From IMG/VR virus record IMGVR_UViG_3300042519_001999, positions 1-23,399 of that record: a DNA stretch of 23,399 nucleotides, one strand, 5' to 3'. This document shows, one piece after another, positions 2,816-13,725 of the stretch (position 1 is the stretch's first letter; each line of letters opens with the position of its first letter). The translations under genes were made by a program, and so were the position numbers. The stretch comes from a virus. The notes beneath the pieces are model-generated. The model did no database searches, was not told the DNA's origin, and saw nothing but the letters and a program-made list of their open reading frames with translations.

Positions 2816-3165
2816 GTTCTACACAATGCCACAATGGTTTTTAATTGTTCTTCAGCCTCACGAACAGCACCCAGTGCATCTGCCACAGCAGGATACTGTT
2901 CAGCCATACGCCGGGCTTCTGCTTCTTCGTCACGTCGTTTACTCACCCAGTCAAGTAACAATTCAGCATCAGGATTCAATCCAACGTAGTAAGTGCCCAG
3001 GCTGAGTTGTTGCCAACTGGTACCGTTATACACTTCCAATCGTTGTGTGCCAGTATTGAATTGCAATTGCCCCACACCCATGTAGCCAGCGTTGTTGACA
3101 TAATTAGTACCAGGGCCGCCGGTGATCGACGTATACTTGCCAGTTTGTTGTATTTGACCTATCAT
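2812..3165 (-). CDS. Small fibre/virion-like protein with helical tail
   Basis: A 117-residue protein. Residues 1-37 (MIGQIQQTGKY, then GPGTNYVNNAGYMGVGQLQFN) and 38-56 (RLEVYNGTSWQQL) look like a short beta-rich fibre or trimer-forming segment; the phrase LEVYNGTSWQQL is typical of phage tail-fibre-like proteins. Residues about 63-117 are charged and helical (DWVSKRRDEEAEARRMAEQ), with possible coiled coil. A diverged, truncated copy of the first 37 residues lies upstream at 4140-4271 (24 of 37 residues identical). ATG 3165 follows the stop of the SGNH-like gene by one base, and the gene's stop overlaps the start of the PolIII-alpha-like gene. A structural role is an inference from composition. 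Confidence 0.55.
   Translation of the reverse strand: MIGQIQQTGKYTSITGGPGTNYVNNAGYMGVGQLQFNTGTQRLEVYNGTSWQQLSLGTYYVGLNPDAELLLDWVSKRRDEEAEARRMAEQYPAVADALGAVREAEEQLKTIVALCRT
3082..3165 (-). repeat. Repeat A', intact copy (start of the fibre-like gene)
   Basis: The first 84 bases of the fibre-like gene are the core of a diverged direct repeat with 4188-4271. Over the first 111 bases of the two reading frames I count 31 differences (about 72% identity), many of them synonymous. It marks the downstream border of the second cargo gene. Confidence 0.75.
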
Positions 3166-3166
3166 A

Positions 3167-4123
3167 TTAGTCCTTATTATAAACAGTTTTGATGTATTTT
3201 ACTAGTACATCGGCAATGAACTTGTTGGATTCAATGCCTGGATGTAACCTATCATTAGCCACATCCATACAATAATTTTCCATCAAACTTGCAGGCACAA
3301 ACTCTGGCATATGATAAAAATATCGTTGGTCTGCCTTAGAATATATGTCTGAATTTTTATACTCTGCCAGCCAAAAAACCATTTTTAATTTTTTGTCTCG
3401 AGCAATGGCAATCATTGCCCTTATTTTTTGCAACAATTCATAAAATAAAAAATCTTTGTGATAGACATCTATTAGAGAACGACGCAAATTATCAGAAGTA
3501 TGTGTGAATAAAATTTTTCTTAGATTTCGATCAATCCCGCAATAGTGCAATCTTTCAAGATAAGTAAGTTGCACAACGACAATCTGTTCTGGAAAAAAAT
3601 CAAATTGGGTAAATCGATCAAATATCAATCCATTGCTACCAGCACCAGAGGCCAAATTACACACTTGCTTGCCAAAATGTTTTGCTACTTGAGTAGCGTA
3701 ATGTGTTTCAACATCAGGCAACCCCACCCCAGCGGTGTGACTACATCCAAAAAACACAGCATGATTTTGATTTAAATTTTGTGGCAACAACTGATTCCAG
3801 TTATAGTCATCAAATTTAATTTTGTAAAAATTTACAACATTTTTATAGACTAAGTTGTAATCTTTTAGCCAATTAAGAAAATCGTAATAACTATCGGCGT
3901 CAAAAAACTCGTCAATGCTAGATTCTGCCCAGTACACTTCTTTTGCCTGACTTAAAATATATTCAAGATCTTTTAAATCAGGCACATCGCCCACTGATGT
4001 GTGCCCTATTAATTGTTCGTGGTCACAGGTTGTGATTAACATACTCGGCGCAATACCAAGCTGTTTGTAGTACTCTGATGTTTTTAAATCAGTGCTGCCA
4101 ATTATGATAATTGATTTTACCAT
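3167..4123 (-). CDS. SGNH/GDSL-hydrolase-like protein (second cargo gene)
   Basis: A 318-residue protein, taking ATG 4123 as the start because the frame further upstream is repeat DNA from neighbouring genes. The C-terminal two thirds carry SGNH-like blocks: FFGCSHTAGVG at 124-134 (candidate nucleophile S128), NLASGAGSNG at 156-165 (oxyanion glycine/asparagine) and NDRLHPG at 290-296 (candidate D291/H294 pair). This suggests an esterase or acetyl-type hydrolase, or a related acyl-modifying enzyme; the substrate is unknown. Residues 1-100 form a separate N-terminal module (MVKSIIIIGSTD ... HTSVGDVPDLKDLEYIL) that resembles the N-terminus of the radical SAM protein next door. The gene starts inside a 38-bp repeat. 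Its DNA is noticeably richer in A and T than its flanks, suggesting recent acquisition. Confidence 0.65.
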   Translation of the reverse strand: MVKSIIIIGSTDLKTSEYYKQLGIAPSMLITTCDHEQLIGHTSVGDVPDLKDLEYILSQAKEVYWAESSIDEFFDADSYYDFLNWLKDYNLVYKNVVNFYKIKFDDYNWNQLLPQNLNQNHAVFFGCSHTAGVGLPDVETHYATQVAKHFGKQVCNLASGAGSNGLIFDRFTQFDFFPEQIVVVQLTYLERLHYCGIDRNLRKILFTHTSDNLRRSLIDVYHKDFLFYELLQKIRAMIAIARDKKLKMVFWLAEYKNSDIYSKADQRYFYHMPEFVPASLMENYCMDVANDRLHPGIESNKFIADVLVKYIKTVYNKD

Positions 4124-4154
4124 CCTGCTTGTTTCAATATTAGTTTTGCGTATT
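4117..4154 (-). repeat. Repeat B', copy of the zinc-finger gene's 3' end
   Basis: These 38 bp match 5773-5810 with a single difference (C/T). In the other copy they encode the last residues of the zinc-finger protein (AKLILKQAGW and stop). Here they do not end a gene, but supply the ATGGTAA start context of the SGNH-like gene. Confidence 0.9.
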
Positions 4155-4271
4155 GTTGATGTTATATTGTAATTGTCCAACACTCATGTAATTACTGTTA
4201 CTGATATAATTACTACCAGGACCGTCGGTGACTACCACATACTTGCCAGTTTGCCCAATGTTTCCTATCAT
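4140..4271 (-). pseudogene. Truncated relic of the fibre-like gene (repeat A)
   Basis: ATG 4271 overlaps the radical SAM stop (ATGA), and a 43-codon frame follows. Residues 1-37 (MIGNIGQTGKY, GPGSNYISNSNYMSVGQLQYN) match the start of the fibre-like protein at 3165 in 24 of 37 positions. The frame then runs into the B' repeat and stops at TAA 4140-4142, losing the RLEVYNG segment and the helical tail. It is therefore a gene fragment left between two cargo genes. Its reading frame is uninterrupted to the junction, so a short peptide could still be made. Confidence 0.75.
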
Positions 4272-5779
4272 ATCAATTTCCTTGCTGCTTCTAATTCTGG
4301 AATGTAATCTACTAATTTAATATTTCTTGATTGATCTAATTTGTCATTGAATTCAAAAAATGTTTTTAATTTTTCCAGGTCTAAACTATAATCTTTGCTG
4401 TAATACATTATAATGCCATCAATAAAACTTTGCAATAGCGGATCATTGTGATAGCATTTCAATTTCTGAACACCCATCAGATTATCTATAATTAAATTTC
4501 TATTGGGAAAATTCAATGCACTCAACTCATCGGTGTTTGCATTAGCAAATGCAGGGTGTATTAATATACCAGGAAATTCTTTATCAAAAAATGCCAACAG
4601 ATCGTACAATTGAGAAATATTATATATGGATACCGTTGTATTAAATGATACCACATAGTTTTGTTCTTTAAGATATTTAACGTTGTCAACTATTGTTTCC
4701 CACTTGCTAGGCCAACGTATGTAATGATTTAACTCGCCAAGCCCGTCAATACTGATAATAAATTGAAAGTTAGAAAATTCTTTTAGTTGTTTTTTAAATT
4801 TATCACTGAGTTTGGTACCATTGGTGTTAACAACAAATTCAAAATTTGTCTGTTTGATTTGTATGCACTTTTCAACAAAATTATAAAATTCTGGCATTGC
4901 AGTAGGTTCGCCACCGGCAACATACAATTTTTTAATATTTTCAAGTTTAACAAAATCAAAATTTAAATAATGTTTTTTGTTGTAGTCAGTGATCAGATTA
5001 ATTTTTTTATATTCTTGTGCTATTAGGTTACTGTTATCTGGTCCACAAGTTCTACACTGTAAATTACAGGTGTTGCCTGGACGAACTTCATAATACACCG
5101 GATGTTGTAAATTGTCCAAATCATCAATATTAGATAAATTCAACCTATTGGCCCATTCAACAGTCTCTTGCATTCTTGCACTCAAGATTCCTTGTTTTTC
5201 AAGATCATAGCAATGAGAACAATGCTCGGGCATGAGTATTCCCGACAACATGTTGTTTCTAATTTTTTGATAATGTGGATCTGTTTTAAAATCTATAATG
5301 TCTGACAATGATGTTATTGGGGTGTTTGATCTACAACACACTGTTGTTTGACCATTGTCGGCTAATAATTCTATAAATGGAAAAATGCAAAAACTTTTAT
5401 TTGTTTTTGTTAGATCTTCAAAAAATGTTATATTGGTGTCGTATGTTGAATCTAGGTATACCACTGGTACTGTGGCATTGATTTGTTTGGCAGCGCGAAT
5501 AGTTTTATAAAATGCGTTGGGATGAGAATATTGATGTTTTGGTTGATCTAATATTATAATCTGATCAAATTCTTGTGCTAAATCGATCAGTCGATGATAT
5601 TCTAAATCATACACACTAGAATGATAATAACCAGGATATTGTATTAATTCTAAGTCAATCACATGATTAAGTTCAGAAATTAATCCGTGACACTTGACTG
5701 ATTGTTGTTCGGCCAGTCGACGAGTTTTAGTATCAGTATCTTCGGTATTATTTCCAAGGCATAAAATTCGCATTACCAT
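4268..5779 (-). CDS. Radical SAM protein, twitch-type (first cargo gene)
   Basis: A 503-residue protein. CNLQCRTC at 238-245 is the CX3CX2C motif that binds the 4Fe-4S cluster and S-adenosylmethionine, and AGGEPT at 288-293 is the SAM-binding GGE motif. Before the core are C187 and C190 (EHCSHCYDLEKQGILSARM), in the place where twitch/SPASM-like proteins hold an auxiliary-cluster or zinc site. Residues 1-110 form an extra N-terminal module (RILCLGNNTEDTDTKT ... YHSSVYDLEYHRLIDLA). Substrate is unknown; radical SAM enzymes of this type modify peptides or small molecules. ATG 5779 overlaps the zinc-finger gene's stop (ATGGTAA), placing the start inside repeat B. The AT-rich composition matches the SGNH cargo gene and differs from the flanking genes. 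Confidence 0.85.
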   Translation of the reverse strand: MVMRILCLGNNTEDTDTKTRRLAEQQSVKCHGLISELNHVIDLELIQYPGYYHSSVYDLEYHRLIDLAQEFDQIIILDQPKHQYSHPNAFYKTIRAAKQINATVPVVYLDSTYDTNITFFEDLTKTNKSFCIFPFIELLADNGQTTVCCRSNTPITSLSDIIDFKTDPHYQKIRNNMLSGILMPEHCSHCYDLEKQGILSARMQETVEWANRLNLSNIDDLDNLQHPVYYEVRPGNTCNLQCRTCGPDNSNLIAQEYKKINLITDYNKKHYLNFDFVKLENIKKLYVAGGEPTAMPEFYNFVEKCIQIKQTNFEFVVNTNGTKLSDKFKKQLKEFSNFQFIISIDGLGELNHYIRWPSKWETIVDNVKYLKEQNYVVSFNTTVSIYNISQLYDLLAFFDKEFPGILIHPAFANANTDELSALNFPNRNLIIDNLMGVQKLKCYHNDPLLQSFIDGIIMYYSKDYSLDLEKLKTFFEFNDKLDQSRNIKLVDYIPELEAARKLI

Positions 5780-5810
5780 CCTGCCTGTTTCAATATTAGT
5801 TTTGCGTATT
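5773..5810 (-). repeat. Repeat B, original copy in the zinc-finger gene
   Basis: This is the 3' end of the zinc-finger gene. It matches 4117-4154 in 37 of 38 positions. It also supplies the ATGGTAA start of the radical SAM gene, just as the other copy supplies that of the SGNH-like gene. Confidence 0.9.
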
Positions 5811-11087: not shown

Positions 11088-12116
11088 TCAGGCACTCTTC
11101 ATGCAAGTTGTCTCTGCAAGACGCTTCCAATTGCCTGCAAAGCTCTTGCGTAAGTCTGCAATCTTCAGGGCCATACGCAAGCTCATCTCACGCAAACGAT
11201 TTTGATTTGCTTCCATGAACTCGATGATCTCGTCCTGCGCACAGGGTTCAAAATCATAGTCTGCAAACAACACACCGTCCTTGGCAATTTGTTTGATACG
11301 CAACACTTTGTCACGCATGGTGTCCAAGGTCAAGTCCAGGTAGTGACAGCGTGATTGCAGTGCATCCAAGTGATCACGCAACTTTTGGCTTTTCATCTGA
11401 TCAAACTTCAAGTTGGTAATAAAGATCACACTACCTTTGAACTCGAAACGATCAGGGATGCCTTCGCGGCGCAAGGTGCTGGACTCACTCAACCATGAAA
11501 TGGTACGCTTCTTGCCGGAGTCTAATGCACCCTTCAACAAGTTCAATGCCACATCGTCAAGCAGGATGCTGTCGCAGTCATCAAACACCAACACACAGTT
11601 GTCATCTGAGTATTTGTACAGTGCTTGATACAAGCCGATAGGGGTCGCTGAACCTTTGACAACTTCAGCACGGAGGCGCTTGCCTGCCAATTTGTCAAAC
11701 AGTGTGGCCTTTTCGATCTCTTGCTCAACACCAAACGATTTGCCAACGCCTGGAGGACCTGACACAATCATGGCACGGATATCACCGTTGACACAGGCCT
11801 TTGTCATCTCATGCAAGATGTCAAACCGCTCACGAATACGTGTCATAATCTCGTCTTCTGTTTCTGCCTCTACTGGGGGCTTGGCAAACGCCACTGTATT
11901 TTCTTTGCTCACTGCATCTCCATTGACATACTCGATGTCGCTAATGTTGTTGACTTTGATACGGATGGTGTCGGGGCAATTGGGAAAAGCACCGTTGTTT
12001 TCTACTGTCACGAAATTACCTTTGGCACCAGATTGAAAGCCTGACACAAGATTGAAAGCGATATTGCGAACGGGTTTGTTGCGATACACACCTTTGATAA
12101 CTCGAATTGCACTCAT
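11088..12116 (-). CDS. AAA+ ATPase, phage type
   Basis: A 342-residue protein with one AAA+ domain. Walker A GPPGVGKS is at 120-127, Walker B VLVFDDCD at 175-182, a sensor-1-like SVIFITNL follows, and an SRC motif (LQSRC) is the likely arginine finger. An N-terminal region of about 110 residues (RNKPVRNIAFNLVSG, then VENNGAFPNCPDTIRIKV) has no clear match. The C-terminal lid is helical and basic. Such proteins remodel protein or nucleic-acid complexes; the substrate is not known. It has a strong ribosome site (AAAGGAGCC, about 7 nt before ATG 12116) and its own promoter. A membrane peptide is coupled directly downstream. Confidence 0.85.
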   Translation of the reverse strand: MSAIRVIKGVYRNKPVRNIAFNLVSGFQSGAKGNFVTVENNGAFPNCPDTIRIKVNNISDIEYVNGDAVSKENTVAFAKPPVEAETEDEIMTRIRERFDILHEMTKACVNGDIRAMIVSGPPGVGKSFGVEQEIEKATLFDKLAGKRLRAEVVKGSATPIGLYQALYKYSDDNCVLVFDDCDSILLDDVALNLLKGALDSGKKRTISWLSESSTLRREGIPDRFEFKGSVIFITNLKFDQMKSQKLRDHLDALQSRCHYLDLTLDTMRDKVLRIKQIAKDGVLFADYDFEPCAQDEIIEFMEANQNRLREMSLRMALKIADLRKSFAGNWKRLAETTCMKSA

Positions 12117-12161
12117 TGTTGGCTCCTTTGAAATGCGTTGTTGTTTACTGTTTATGTCTCT

Positions 12162-12190
12162 ATTATAGCAAATAATGAATTAATGGTCAA
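12162..12190 (-). promoter_or_regulatory. Sigma70-type promoter P1 of the AAA+ gene
   Basis: On the minus strand TTGACC (12190-12185), exactly 17 bp, then TATAAT (12167-12162), a consensus -10. The -35 lies within the last codons of the 60-residue gene upstream. A leader of about 40 nt with AAAGGAGCC follows. Its spacer differs from those of P2-P4. Confidence 0.9.
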
Positions 12191-12362
12191 CCGGTGCAAA
12201 CATCTCTTGGCCCAGTTGCATAAAAACAACAAACGCCTTCATTGTGTTTTCGCCGTACAACATGCGACCATGTTTTTGGATGTCTTGCAGTGTTTCCAAC
12301 AGGCCCATGCCTTGGAAATCTGCTTCATTTTGTATTTGTTTAATTGCTGTTTCGATCTTCAT
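12180..12362 (-). CDS. Small unknown protein, 60 residues (cassette 1)
   Basis: A small helical protein beginning MKIETAIKQIQNEADFQG, then LLETLQDIQKHGRMLYGENTMKAFVVFM, ending FAPVDH. It is preceded by AAAAAGGAGCC at the proper spacing and by a strong promoter, so it is almost certainly expressed. No motif is recognised. It is the last of three tiny genes built on the same promoter/leader. The end of its coding region contains the -35 of the next promoter. Confidence 0.75.
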   Translation of the reverse strand: MKIETAIKQIQNEADFQGMGLLETLQDIQKHGRMLYGENTMKAFVVFMQLGQEMFAPVDH

Positions 12363-12392
12363 TGCTGGCTCCTTTTTGCTTTGTATGCCATT

Positions 12393-12421
12393 ATTATAGC
12401 ATTTTGGGAATTATTGGTCAA
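12393..12421 (-). promoter_or_regulatory. Sigma70-type promoter P2 (repeat unit)
   Basis: TTGACC (12421-12416), 17 bp, TATAAT (12398-12393). From GGTCAA to the GGCTCC of the ribosome site, positions 12367-12421 are identical to 12616-12670, 55 of 55 bases. Confidence 0.95.
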
Positions 12422-12432
12422 CCAAAATAAAT

Positions 12433-12450
12433 GTAATACTCAAGTATTAC
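12433..12450 (-). terminator. Short hairpin at the end of the 54-residue gene
   Basis: GTAATAC (12433-12439) pairs with GTATTAC (12444-12450) around a 4-base loop, and on the minus strand T-rich DNA follows. The gene's TAA stop lies within the stem. It is a weak terminator or an RNA-stabilising hairpin. Confidence 0.4.
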
Positions 12451-12611
12451 AAAACCAAGTCAAGCAGTTGTTGTCTTGCCTGTTTAAGCTCTACCAGCAG
12501 GTCTGCATAGTAACCCACATTGTCCTCGCCACCGTTCACGTATACTTCAGCGTCTGCAATCTGTTCATATACCATGTTTAGTAAAAAATTTGCTGTGTCT
12601 TTAGTAATCAT
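12447..12611 (-). CDS. Small unknown protein, 54 residues (cassette 2)
   Basis: ATG 12611 is preceded by AAAAAGGAGCC and by promoter P3. The frame gives MITKDTANFLLNMVYEQIADAE, then YVNGGEDNVGYYADLLVELKQAR, ending LLDLVL. It is acidic and mainly helical, with no known motif. The ribosome site and promoter are the same as in the neighbouring cassettes. The gene ends within a hairpin, and the next promoter begins about 20 bases further on. Confidence 0.8.
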   Translation of the reverse strand: MITKDTANFLLNMVYEQIADAEVYVNGGEDNVGYYADLLVELKQARQQLLDLVL

Positions 12612-12641
12612 TCCAGGCTCCTTTTTGCTTTGTATGCCATT

Positions 12642-12670
12642 ATTATAGCATTTTGGGAATTATTGGTCAA
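12642..12670 (-). promoter_or_regulatory. Sigma70-type promoter P3 (repeat unit)
   Basis: TTGACC (12670-12665), 17 bp, TATAAT (12647-12642). The whole promoter and leader are identical to P2 over 55 bp. Confidence 0.95.
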
Positions 12671-12672
12671 TC

Positions 12673-12703
12673 AAAAAGTAGTACTGCCAAAGTGTTACTT
12701 TTT
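12673..12703 (-). terminator. Hairpin with T tail at the end of the 69-residue gene
   Basis: AAAAAGTA (12673-12680) pairs with TACTTTTT (12696-12703) around a 15-base loop that can pair further. On the minus strand the stem ends in five T. The gene's TAA stop overlaps the stem and promoter P3 starts right after it. Confidence 0.5.
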
Positions 12704-12904
12704 GAACTGTTCGAAGAAGCGGGTGTTGATTTCGTCCATTTCCGCCTGCTCTACATAGAAGTCGGTAGTAGGGTCGTAGTACTGACCTGCCTTGTTGTCA
12801 TAATACAACACACGACCACTGAAGTTGAACGGGCCTTCCAGGCCTTTGCGTGGCCCATACTTGTCACGCATGATGTCCAGGGTGTCAACTACACGATATC
12901 CCAT
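12695..12904 (-). CDS. Small unknown protein, 69 residues (cassette 3)
   Basis: MGYRVVDTLDIMRDKYGPRK starts the protein, followed by a glycine- and tyrosine-rich middle (FNFSGRVLYYDNKAGQYYD) and an acidic helical end (EQAEMDEINTRFFEQFKK). The middle looks like a short beta-hairpin with repeated tyrosines. It has a GGGAGCC ribosome site and promoter P4. No family is recognised. It is the first transcribed of the three promoter-carrying tiny genes. Confidence 0.75.
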   Translation of the reverse strand: MGYRVVDTLDIMRDKYGPRKGLEGPFNFSGRVLYYDNKAGQYYDPTTDFYVEQAEMDEINTRFFEQFKK

Positions 12905-12933
12905 TGCTGGCTCCCGTTTGTTTGTATGCCACT

Positions 12934-12962
12934 AGTATAGCATTTTGGGAATTTCCGGTCAA
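12934..12962 (-). promoter_or_regulatory. Sigma70-type promoter P4 (diverged repeat unit)
   Basis: TTGACC (12962-12957), 17 bp, TATACT (12939-12934). Most of the spacer and leader match P2/P3, with differences near the -35, the -10 and the ribosome site. Confidence 0.9.
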
Positions 12963-12981
12963 GTACTACTCTAGTATTACA

Positions 12982-13725
12982 TCATTGCCAGTGCATTGCT
13001 ACCACAGGATCCGTGATACATTCATGCGGTTTGGGTTTTCCGTGAAATACTAAAATGCTGGTCTCGTCCCCTACTATGGTTGGTGTTCCAGGTTTTCGGG
13101 GTCGTCGGCGGGAAAAGTCATAACCACCTTCGCTGATTTGCCAACGCCAGCTTTGCAGTTGACTTTGTTCAAAGTTTCTGCGTTGATTGTGATCAATCAC
13201 TGCACCGATGTAGTCTTGATCACCTTGATATCGCCGTACAGTTTGCTGGATGTCTAATTTCACAAAGTCCGCCCAGACATCAGCAAACTTGGTGACATTC
13301 CACCACATCACACTGCTGTTGATTCCTGAGTGAGTGGTTTTTTGTAGATATCTAAAATCTCGTATGGACCAAAAGTAATCAGTGCTGAGTTCGGGTATCC
13401 AACTAATGCCATTGATGATCACACAATCAAGATCAAAGTACAACAAATTGCCTGCATGATGTTCAGGATTGAACAACTGCATTTTGTACCACCACGACCG
13501 TTTGGGACCTGATATACCGGGCCATTCACTCAAACAGTGTTTGATCATGTGTGACGGTACTGATCTGTGTTCTTCAGTATACACATGAAAACGTATGCCT
13601 TGGGGCATGTGTCGTGTCAACATGTTGTACAGTTTGTCCACGTACTGCCAATCATATCCAGTGCCGTGGATTACACAAGCACAATCAATTATGCCGTCAA
13701 TGCGGGCTCGATTCTTTTTAGCCAT
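12982..13725 (-). CDS. Glycosyltransferase-like protein, GT-A type
   Basis: A 247-residue protein. YFDLDCVI at 96-103 carries the DxD metal/nucleotide-sugar motif after a strand, and the preceding region (ACVIHGTGYDWQYVDKLYNML, FHVYTEEH) has the layout of GT8/GT32-like folds. Later GDQDYIGAVI and ILVFHGKPKPHE are typical of the acceptor side. It would move a sugar from a nucleotide-sugar donor to an unknown acceptor. ATG 13725 lies within the last 37 bases of the upstream gene; that overlap is longer than usual, and a later non-ATG start is possible. No membrane segment. It belongs to the sugar region and shares an operon with the capsule-type gene upstream. Confidence 0.75.
   Translation of the reverse strand: MAKKNRARIDGIIDCACVIHGTGYDWQYVDKLYNMLTRHMPQGIRFHVYTEEHRSVPSHMIKHCLSEWPGISGPKRSWWYKMQLFNPEHHAGNLLYFDLDCVIINGISWIPELSTDYFWSIRDFRYLQKTTHSGINSSVMWWNVTKFADVWADFVKLDIQQTVRRYQGDQDYIGAVIDHNQRRNFEQSQLQSWRWQISEGGYDFSRRRPRKPGTPTIVGDETSILVFHGKPKPHECITDPVVAMHWQ

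Follow-up and report, generated by a model that had tools for sequence, protein, structure and literature searches.

How do unrelated tiny genes come to stand behind one and the same promoter sequence, and what is the role of the short palindromes that accompany these promoters? Both questions are raised by a locus in a complete IMG/VR virus record of 23,399 bases, referred to here as the window.

Layout of the Array and Conservation of the Small Genes

The minus strand of this locus (Table 1) contains three tiny genes encoding proteins of 69, 54, and 60 aa (ORF3, ORF2, and ORF1), each with its own promoter-like site and ribosome site, as the first-pass annotation had stated; the ribosome site reads GGAGCC. 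Three promoters had been counted in that annotation; a scan of the window identified four promoter-like sites on the minus strand, all of one form (TTGACC-N3-AATTC-N6-TGC-TATAMT). While P4, P3, and P2 do precede tiny ORFs, P1 drives the gene encoding the 342-aa ATPase, a conserved core gene, and the promoter class is thus not specific to tiny genes. The leader is approximately 30 nt long, and longer ahead of the ATPase gene. Judged from its sequence, the array is real and looks functional.

Table 1. Features of the array and of the flanking genes, with positions in the window.
Feature	Position	Strand	Comment
AAA-type ATPase, 342 aa, phrog_1250	11088..12116	-	conserved core gene of the neighborhood
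Promoter P1, TTGACCATTAATTCATTATTTGCTATAAT	12162..12190	-	5′ of ATPase gene
ORF1, 60 aa	12180..12362	-	3′ end overlaps P1; predicted three-helix protein
P2 55-bp unit (promoter 12393-12421, leader, ribosome site)	12367..12421	-	5′ of ORF1
Perfect palindrome GTAATACTTGAGTATTAC over ORF2 stop codon, candidate operator	12433..12450	-	11 bp upstream of P2 -35
ORF2, 54 aa, cassette present/absent between P3 and P2 repeats	12447..12611	-	
P3 55-bp unit (promoter 12642-12670, leader, ribosome site)	12616..12670	-	same sequence as P2
Imperfect hairpin over ORF3 stop codon	12673..12703	-	includes degenerate GTANTAC pair 12681-12698, 10 bp upstream of P3 -35
ORF3, 69 aa, phrog_13298	12695..12904	-	homologues in at least 28 contigs
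Promoter P4, TTGACCGGAAATTCCCAAAATGCTATACT	12934..12962	-	5′ of ORF3
Paired GTANTAC element GTAATACTAGAGTAGTAC, candidate operator	12963..12980	-	0 bp from P4 -35; RNA fold not above chance
Glycosyltransferase-like gene, 247 aa, phrog_1962	12982..13725	-	upstream neighbor

Poor conservation of the tiny ORFs would have spoken against the first-pass annotation; we found the opposite, with purifying selection on the widely conserved ORF3 and on ORF1, which is conserved in 18 contigs. Pooled pN/pS was 0.16 for ORF3, 0.27 for ORF1, and 0.18 for ORF2 (the last from three sequences only), and dN/dS in pairs with the window sequence ranged from 0.04 to 0.17 for ORF3. By this measure, the small ORFs are genuine genes.

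Two further features were observed elsewhere in the window. ARAGORN reported a 98-nt tRNA-His (958–1055), which lies inside an ORF on the same strand (789–1868) and is probably a false positive. A 108-nt stretch is repeated at 74% identity (3060–3167 and 4166–4273), giving two ORFs similar N-termini (MIG-I-QTGKY...).

A Lineage-Wide Promoter Class with a Conserved Spacer

Each unit contains a strong sigma-70-like promoter, as predicted from sequence motifs: -35, TGn, and -10 are all present, at a spacing of 17, and three of the four array promoters are among the five best sigma-70 matches of the window, with scores of 11/12 each. Generic sigma-70 sites, as a class, did not exceed the number expected by chance (50 in the window vs. 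46 expected); the 29-bp pattern occurred three times, as compared to none in 100 dinucleotide shuffles.

At least 120 stretches with the promoter pattern were found among the viral contigs listed, and the promoter recurs in uncultivated viral contigs of up to 345 kb, nearly always on a single strand per contig. A search for TTGAC-N15-TGN-TATAAT, which fixes only the hexamers and the TG, identified 137 sites in 12 related contigs drawn from the pattern-bearing viral contigs; all but one of these sites conformed to a single strand per contig, and the backwards control gave one match in the same 12 contigs. The logo of 115 of these promoters (one contig, a near-duplicate of another, was excluded) presented a conserved 17-bp spacer, AATAATTSCCAATTTGC, and a second sample of promoters, picked through the GTANTAC pair described below and not through the spacer, presented nearly the same one. 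The earlier claim that conservation extends beyond the hexamers is thus borne out, and across the lineage. Around the inferred transcription start, 221 promoters with ordinary leaders showed the consensus YATA.

The suggestion that this spacer holds an operator fared less well, as a better candidate is the GTANTAC pair located 5′ of the -35. The spacer may simply belong to an extended promoter, by analogy with the early promoters of T4, in which a consensus also exists outside the hexamers (PMC2988021); extended promoters are therefore a known kind of element. Like the promoters of the array, those of T4 early genes have all three elements (-35, TGn, and -10) in perfect or near-perfect form, with additional consensus around them; the array differs from them in its -35, TTGACC, and neither its spacer nor the fixed element at about -45/-55 appears in the passages on T4 that we consulted (PMC2988021). 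In T4-type early promoters, which are active as soon as infection begins and need no phage protein synthesis, the region from -40 to -60 holds a UP element rich in A+T; in the same region the array has the GTANTAC pair at P4 and an A/T-rich gap at P2 and P3.

The near-consensus pattern TTGACCAATAATTSCCNNNNTGCTATAAT had no match in the genomes of 84,980 prokaryote species, and the promoter plus the GTANTAC element had none in prokaryote genome contigs; no host can therefore be named. Searches of the 55-bp unit against named phages gave partial matches only (E of about 2 or more), and no cultured member of the lineage carrying this promoter class was found.

A separate observation concerns leaderless genes, in which the ATG lies exactly 6 nt past TATAAT, i.e., at the inferred start and not approximately 30 nt downstream of it. 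Such genes follow 44 of 297 deduplicated promoters (in L084, L044, L066, L097, L099, L108, and other contigs); the arrangement is most striking in a GIY-YIG-like family of 108–115 aa (13 of 13 members behind GTANTAC promoters).

Gene Content Changes at Promoter Copies

P2 and P3 have the same sequence over exactly 55 bp although they stand before unrelated ORFs, in agreement with the first-pass annotation. Among relatives, the order glycosyltransferase gene, ORF3, ORF1, ATPase gene is kept and the slots in between vary. In six contigs (L117, L020, L022, L053, L082, and L112) the slot between ORF3 and ORF1 is empty. In the window, L080, and L128 it is occupied by ORF2, and in L064, L070, and L081 by an unrelated 86-aa gene, in each case together with an extra promoter. 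A further contig, L125, matches the window at approximately 99% identity over the stretch running from the 3′ part of ORF3 to the ATPase gene and is without exactly the 249-bp ORF2 unit; a single hybrid promoter junction remains, located at the direct repeat, in which the left side of P3 is fused to P2. The same junction is also the expected product of an assembler collapsing a repeat of approximately 60 bp; the other empty sites, which differ in sequence around the junction, make such a collapse unlikely for L125, although it is possible in principle.

DNA identity to L128 and L080 is 98% for ORF2 but 75–88% for ORF3 and the glycosyltransferase gene, indicating that the ORF2 segment has travelled. 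In L128 a different promoter precedes ORF2, so the bracketing promoters are not always near-identical. Within a contig, neighboring promoters show a higher average similarity than promoters that lie far apart (10 of 283 neighboring pairs agreed at 48 or more of 52 bases vs. 3 of 350 distant pairs), and near-identical neighbors occur in several unrelated contigs.

Comparison of these contigs shows near-identical promoter units to be places where gene content changes, with gain, loss, or replacement of one cassette at a time; the presence or absence of ORF2 may reflect either a gain or a loss. An empty site, a filled site, and a replacement by the 86-aa gene, all at promoter copies, suggest that recombination between copies adds and removes genes, and the earlier proposal of insertion behind copied promoters is right in outline: as the empty site of L125 and the relatives with the 86-aa gene show, small genes both come and go there. 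An account without recombination, in which promoters converge on an optimum for the host RNA polymerase and selection keeps P2 and P3 identical, would draw on the T4 early consensus beyond the hexamers (PMC2988021) and on the identical 29-bp promoters found in different contigs. We consider it improbable: the 55-bp identity takes in the whole leader, neighboring promoters resemble each other more than distant ones do, gene content switches exactly at the repeat in the empty-site allele, and DNA identity steps from 75–88% to 98% around ORF2.

Elsewhere in the window, a 38-bp direct repeat (97% identical; 4117–4154 and 5773–5810) brackets a second gene, a radical-SAM gene on the minus strand (4268–5779) with a low GC content (31%).

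Similarity to Promoter-Early Stem-Loop Cassettes

Promoter-early stem-loops (PeSLs) are elements for which circular recombination products (mini-circles) are seen in virions. They are mobile regulatory cassettes of the T4-type phages RB49 and phi1, reportedly described by Arbiol et al. in 2010 and by Comeau et al. in 2014. Gene shuffling through PeSL cassettes in T4-type phages is reported in PMC4503421, and the cassettes of RB49 and phi1 are also cited in PMC5348500. In RB49 DNA, which we read directly, a terminator hairpin stands straight before the -35 (TTGACA) and is followed by the -10, leader, ribosome site, and start codon. The array follows the same succession: a stem-loop or palindrome comes after the gene stop, then the promoter (-35 and -10), a leader of approximately 30 nt, the ribosome site, and the start codon. 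It also has several near-identical copies among small genes, with gene gain, loss, and replacement at these copies. It differs from PeSLs in belonging to another virus lineage and having another promoter sequence; the two RB49 copies examined do not show the conservation of the spacer that marks the array class. In addition, the PeSL stem-loop is an effective terminator, whereas the array has at that place the paired GTANTAC, which need not be one. By analogy, the array would work in the manner of PeSLs, with incomplete membership of that group.

The setting may be of T4 type: the ATPase belongs to a family (phrog_1250) that many T4-like phages share, with a gene for a DNA helicase (phrog_16) next to it. 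No capsid or tail gene was identified in the window. The best ATPase relatives in named phages are those of the Pseudomonas jumbo phage PA5oct (Arenbergviridae) and its kin (41–46% identity over 90–99% of the query). PA5oct resembles the array in having four small genes directly upstream of its ATPase gene but lacks the promoter class, with scattered sigma-70 matches on both strands and without the spacer.

The Paired GTANTAC Element

A hairpin had been proposed at the stop of each tiny gene. Palindromes are present at three of the four promoter units in the window, and the proposal holds for the stops of ORF2 and ORF3 but not for that of ORF1, which lies inside P1; a palindrome also lies just past the stop of the glycosyltransferase gene. 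RNA folding was weak, with z values of -1.7 after ORF3, -1.0 after ORF2, and +0.8 after the glycosyltransferase gene, and a terminator scan returned none of the palindromes of the window.

These "hairpins" belong to a family, GTANTAC-N4-GTANTAC, with 57 occurrences in the first set of loci as compared to 0 in a reversed control, and in the larger contigs most pairs directly precede a promoter of the array class. A scan of the collection that covered gaps of 0–12 bp yielded 113 unique pairs no more than 12 bp from a -35, with a gap of 0 in 38, 9–11 bp, or one turn of the helix, in 70, and other distances in 5 (or, when binned, 0–2 bp in 41, 7–11 bp in 72, and 3–6 bp in none); these counts are less than fully independent, as the contigs are related to one another. 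The two-mode pattern spans 45 unrelated clusters of downstream genes, and the gaps fit a period of 10.5 bp (vector length 0.92 vs. a random maximum of 0.43). A third group in the first set of loci lies 32–36 bp from the -35, nearly always with a G+C-rich terminator in between. In several promoter-bearing contigs the pair is absent or nearly so. Two tandem pairs precede one promoter in L096, L097, and L019, an arrangement that resembles multiple operators.

These palindromes could be weak intrinsic terminators or 3′-end hairpins that insulate the cassettes, which would make the array a plain PeSL system whose stem-loop is A+T-rich and which has no operator. They do begin at the stop codon of the upstream gene or close to it, TTTT follows the stem in 47 of the 72 copies with a gap of 7–11 bp, the hairpin after ORF3 has the lowest z of the three, and the terminator of RB49 cassettes occupies the corresponding place; however, copies with a gap of 0 are without the T-run, the gap length is constant even where the T-run is missing, and in ten relatives a G+C-rich terminator of its own stands between palindrome and promoter. 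An RNA hairpin was also rejected on the pairing itself: the central N positions were pairable in 37 of 113 copies (shuffled mean, 38.5) and showed no covariation, the flanks paired no better than shuffled ones, and the loops occurred both as TTGA and as TCAA. We therefore regard the terminator explanation as unlikely, although it suits part of the copies that have a T-run. We infer that the GTANTAC pair is distinct from the true terminators, which in those ten relatives lie between it and the promoter, and that it acts at the DNA level, as a candidate operator whose bound protein would sit on one face of the promoter.

The pair might instead be the target of an enzyme that inserts the cassettes, either a site-specific recombinase or a homing endonuclease, since it lies at cassette borders and since the largest family behind GTANTAC promoters (13 of 98) is the small GIY-YIG-like family. 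This is very improbable, as the spacing of the pair is fixed to the -35 and not to gene ends, and as the junction in L125 coincides with the promoter repeat and not with the palindrome; moreover, the GIY-YIG-like family occurs in contigs with few or no GTANTAC sites and was undetected in several contigs with them (these may be fragments). The same family, considered as the GTANTAC-binding protein, was rejected because its presence (13 records) does not track the element, and our search found no regulator gene for the pair.

The phased GTANTAC element is the newest part of the array. That it serves as the operator of an undescribed regulator, one that controls an entire regulon of early genes in large uncultivated viruses, with the conserved spacer as part of the same recognition system, is a possibility to which we give slightly less than even odds.

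Products of the Small Genes and Proposed Mechanism

In profile searches of the window proteins, ORF1 and ORF2 presented no family match. ORF1 is predicted to fold into three helices (pLDDT 89), and the closest matches to this structure are uncharacterized phage proteins (best E 0.0045). The ORF3 protein and its 27 homologues (28 of 28) presented a weak match to Pfam OCRE (best E 8e-6), with the match of the window protein under the curated cut-off; its predicted structure is poor (pLDDT 63). OCRE consists of aromatic-rich YYD repeats and is known from eukaryotic splicing factors; the likeness of ORF3 may reflect either convergence or a distant relation.

The explanation we favor, with a probability of roughly 75%, is that the array represents single-gene expression cassettes of a T4-related lineage of large viruses, in which genes are exchanged at promoter copies as in PeSLs and the GTANTAC pair serves as an operator. 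In the sequence, each gene has its own sigma-70-type promoter of the lineage-wide class, with leader and ribosome site, and many of the promoter copies are preceded by a paired GTANTAC whose position is fixed. Homologous recombination between these copies would change gene content. Host RNA polymerase would read the promoters immediately after infection, and a regulator bound at the GTANTAC pair would act on one face of the promoter DNA; the early timing, the high-level expression proposed in the first-pass annotation, and the use of the promoters are all predictions from the DNA. The products would be small proteins that are either host-directed or dispensable.

Compatible with this cassette explanation is the more specific reading that the early proteins made from the array serve host takeover or are toxic to the host. 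Small, turning-over genes behind strong promoters fit the early genes of T4-type phages, and the size of these genes, their strong predicted promoters, and their turnover among relatives all point in this direction. Family searches, in contrast, offered nothing beyond the OCRE-like match of ORF3, and conservation of ORF3 across most relatives indicates that it is not a typical dispensable accessory gene; we thus hold this reading only tentatively.

With single-gene cassettes exchanged at promoter copies as the preferred explanation, the window and its relatives offer a natural pair of alleles, with and without the gene and resolved to the nucleotide, for the idea that promoter copies serve T4-related viruses as recombination sites for trading small accessory genes. 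Exchange of tiny genes between identical promoter copies is a likely route by which such viruses swap small genes, and the 29-bp promoter with its phased 18-bp element may serve as a signature for finding early genes in metagenomes of large viruses and for seeking their regulator.
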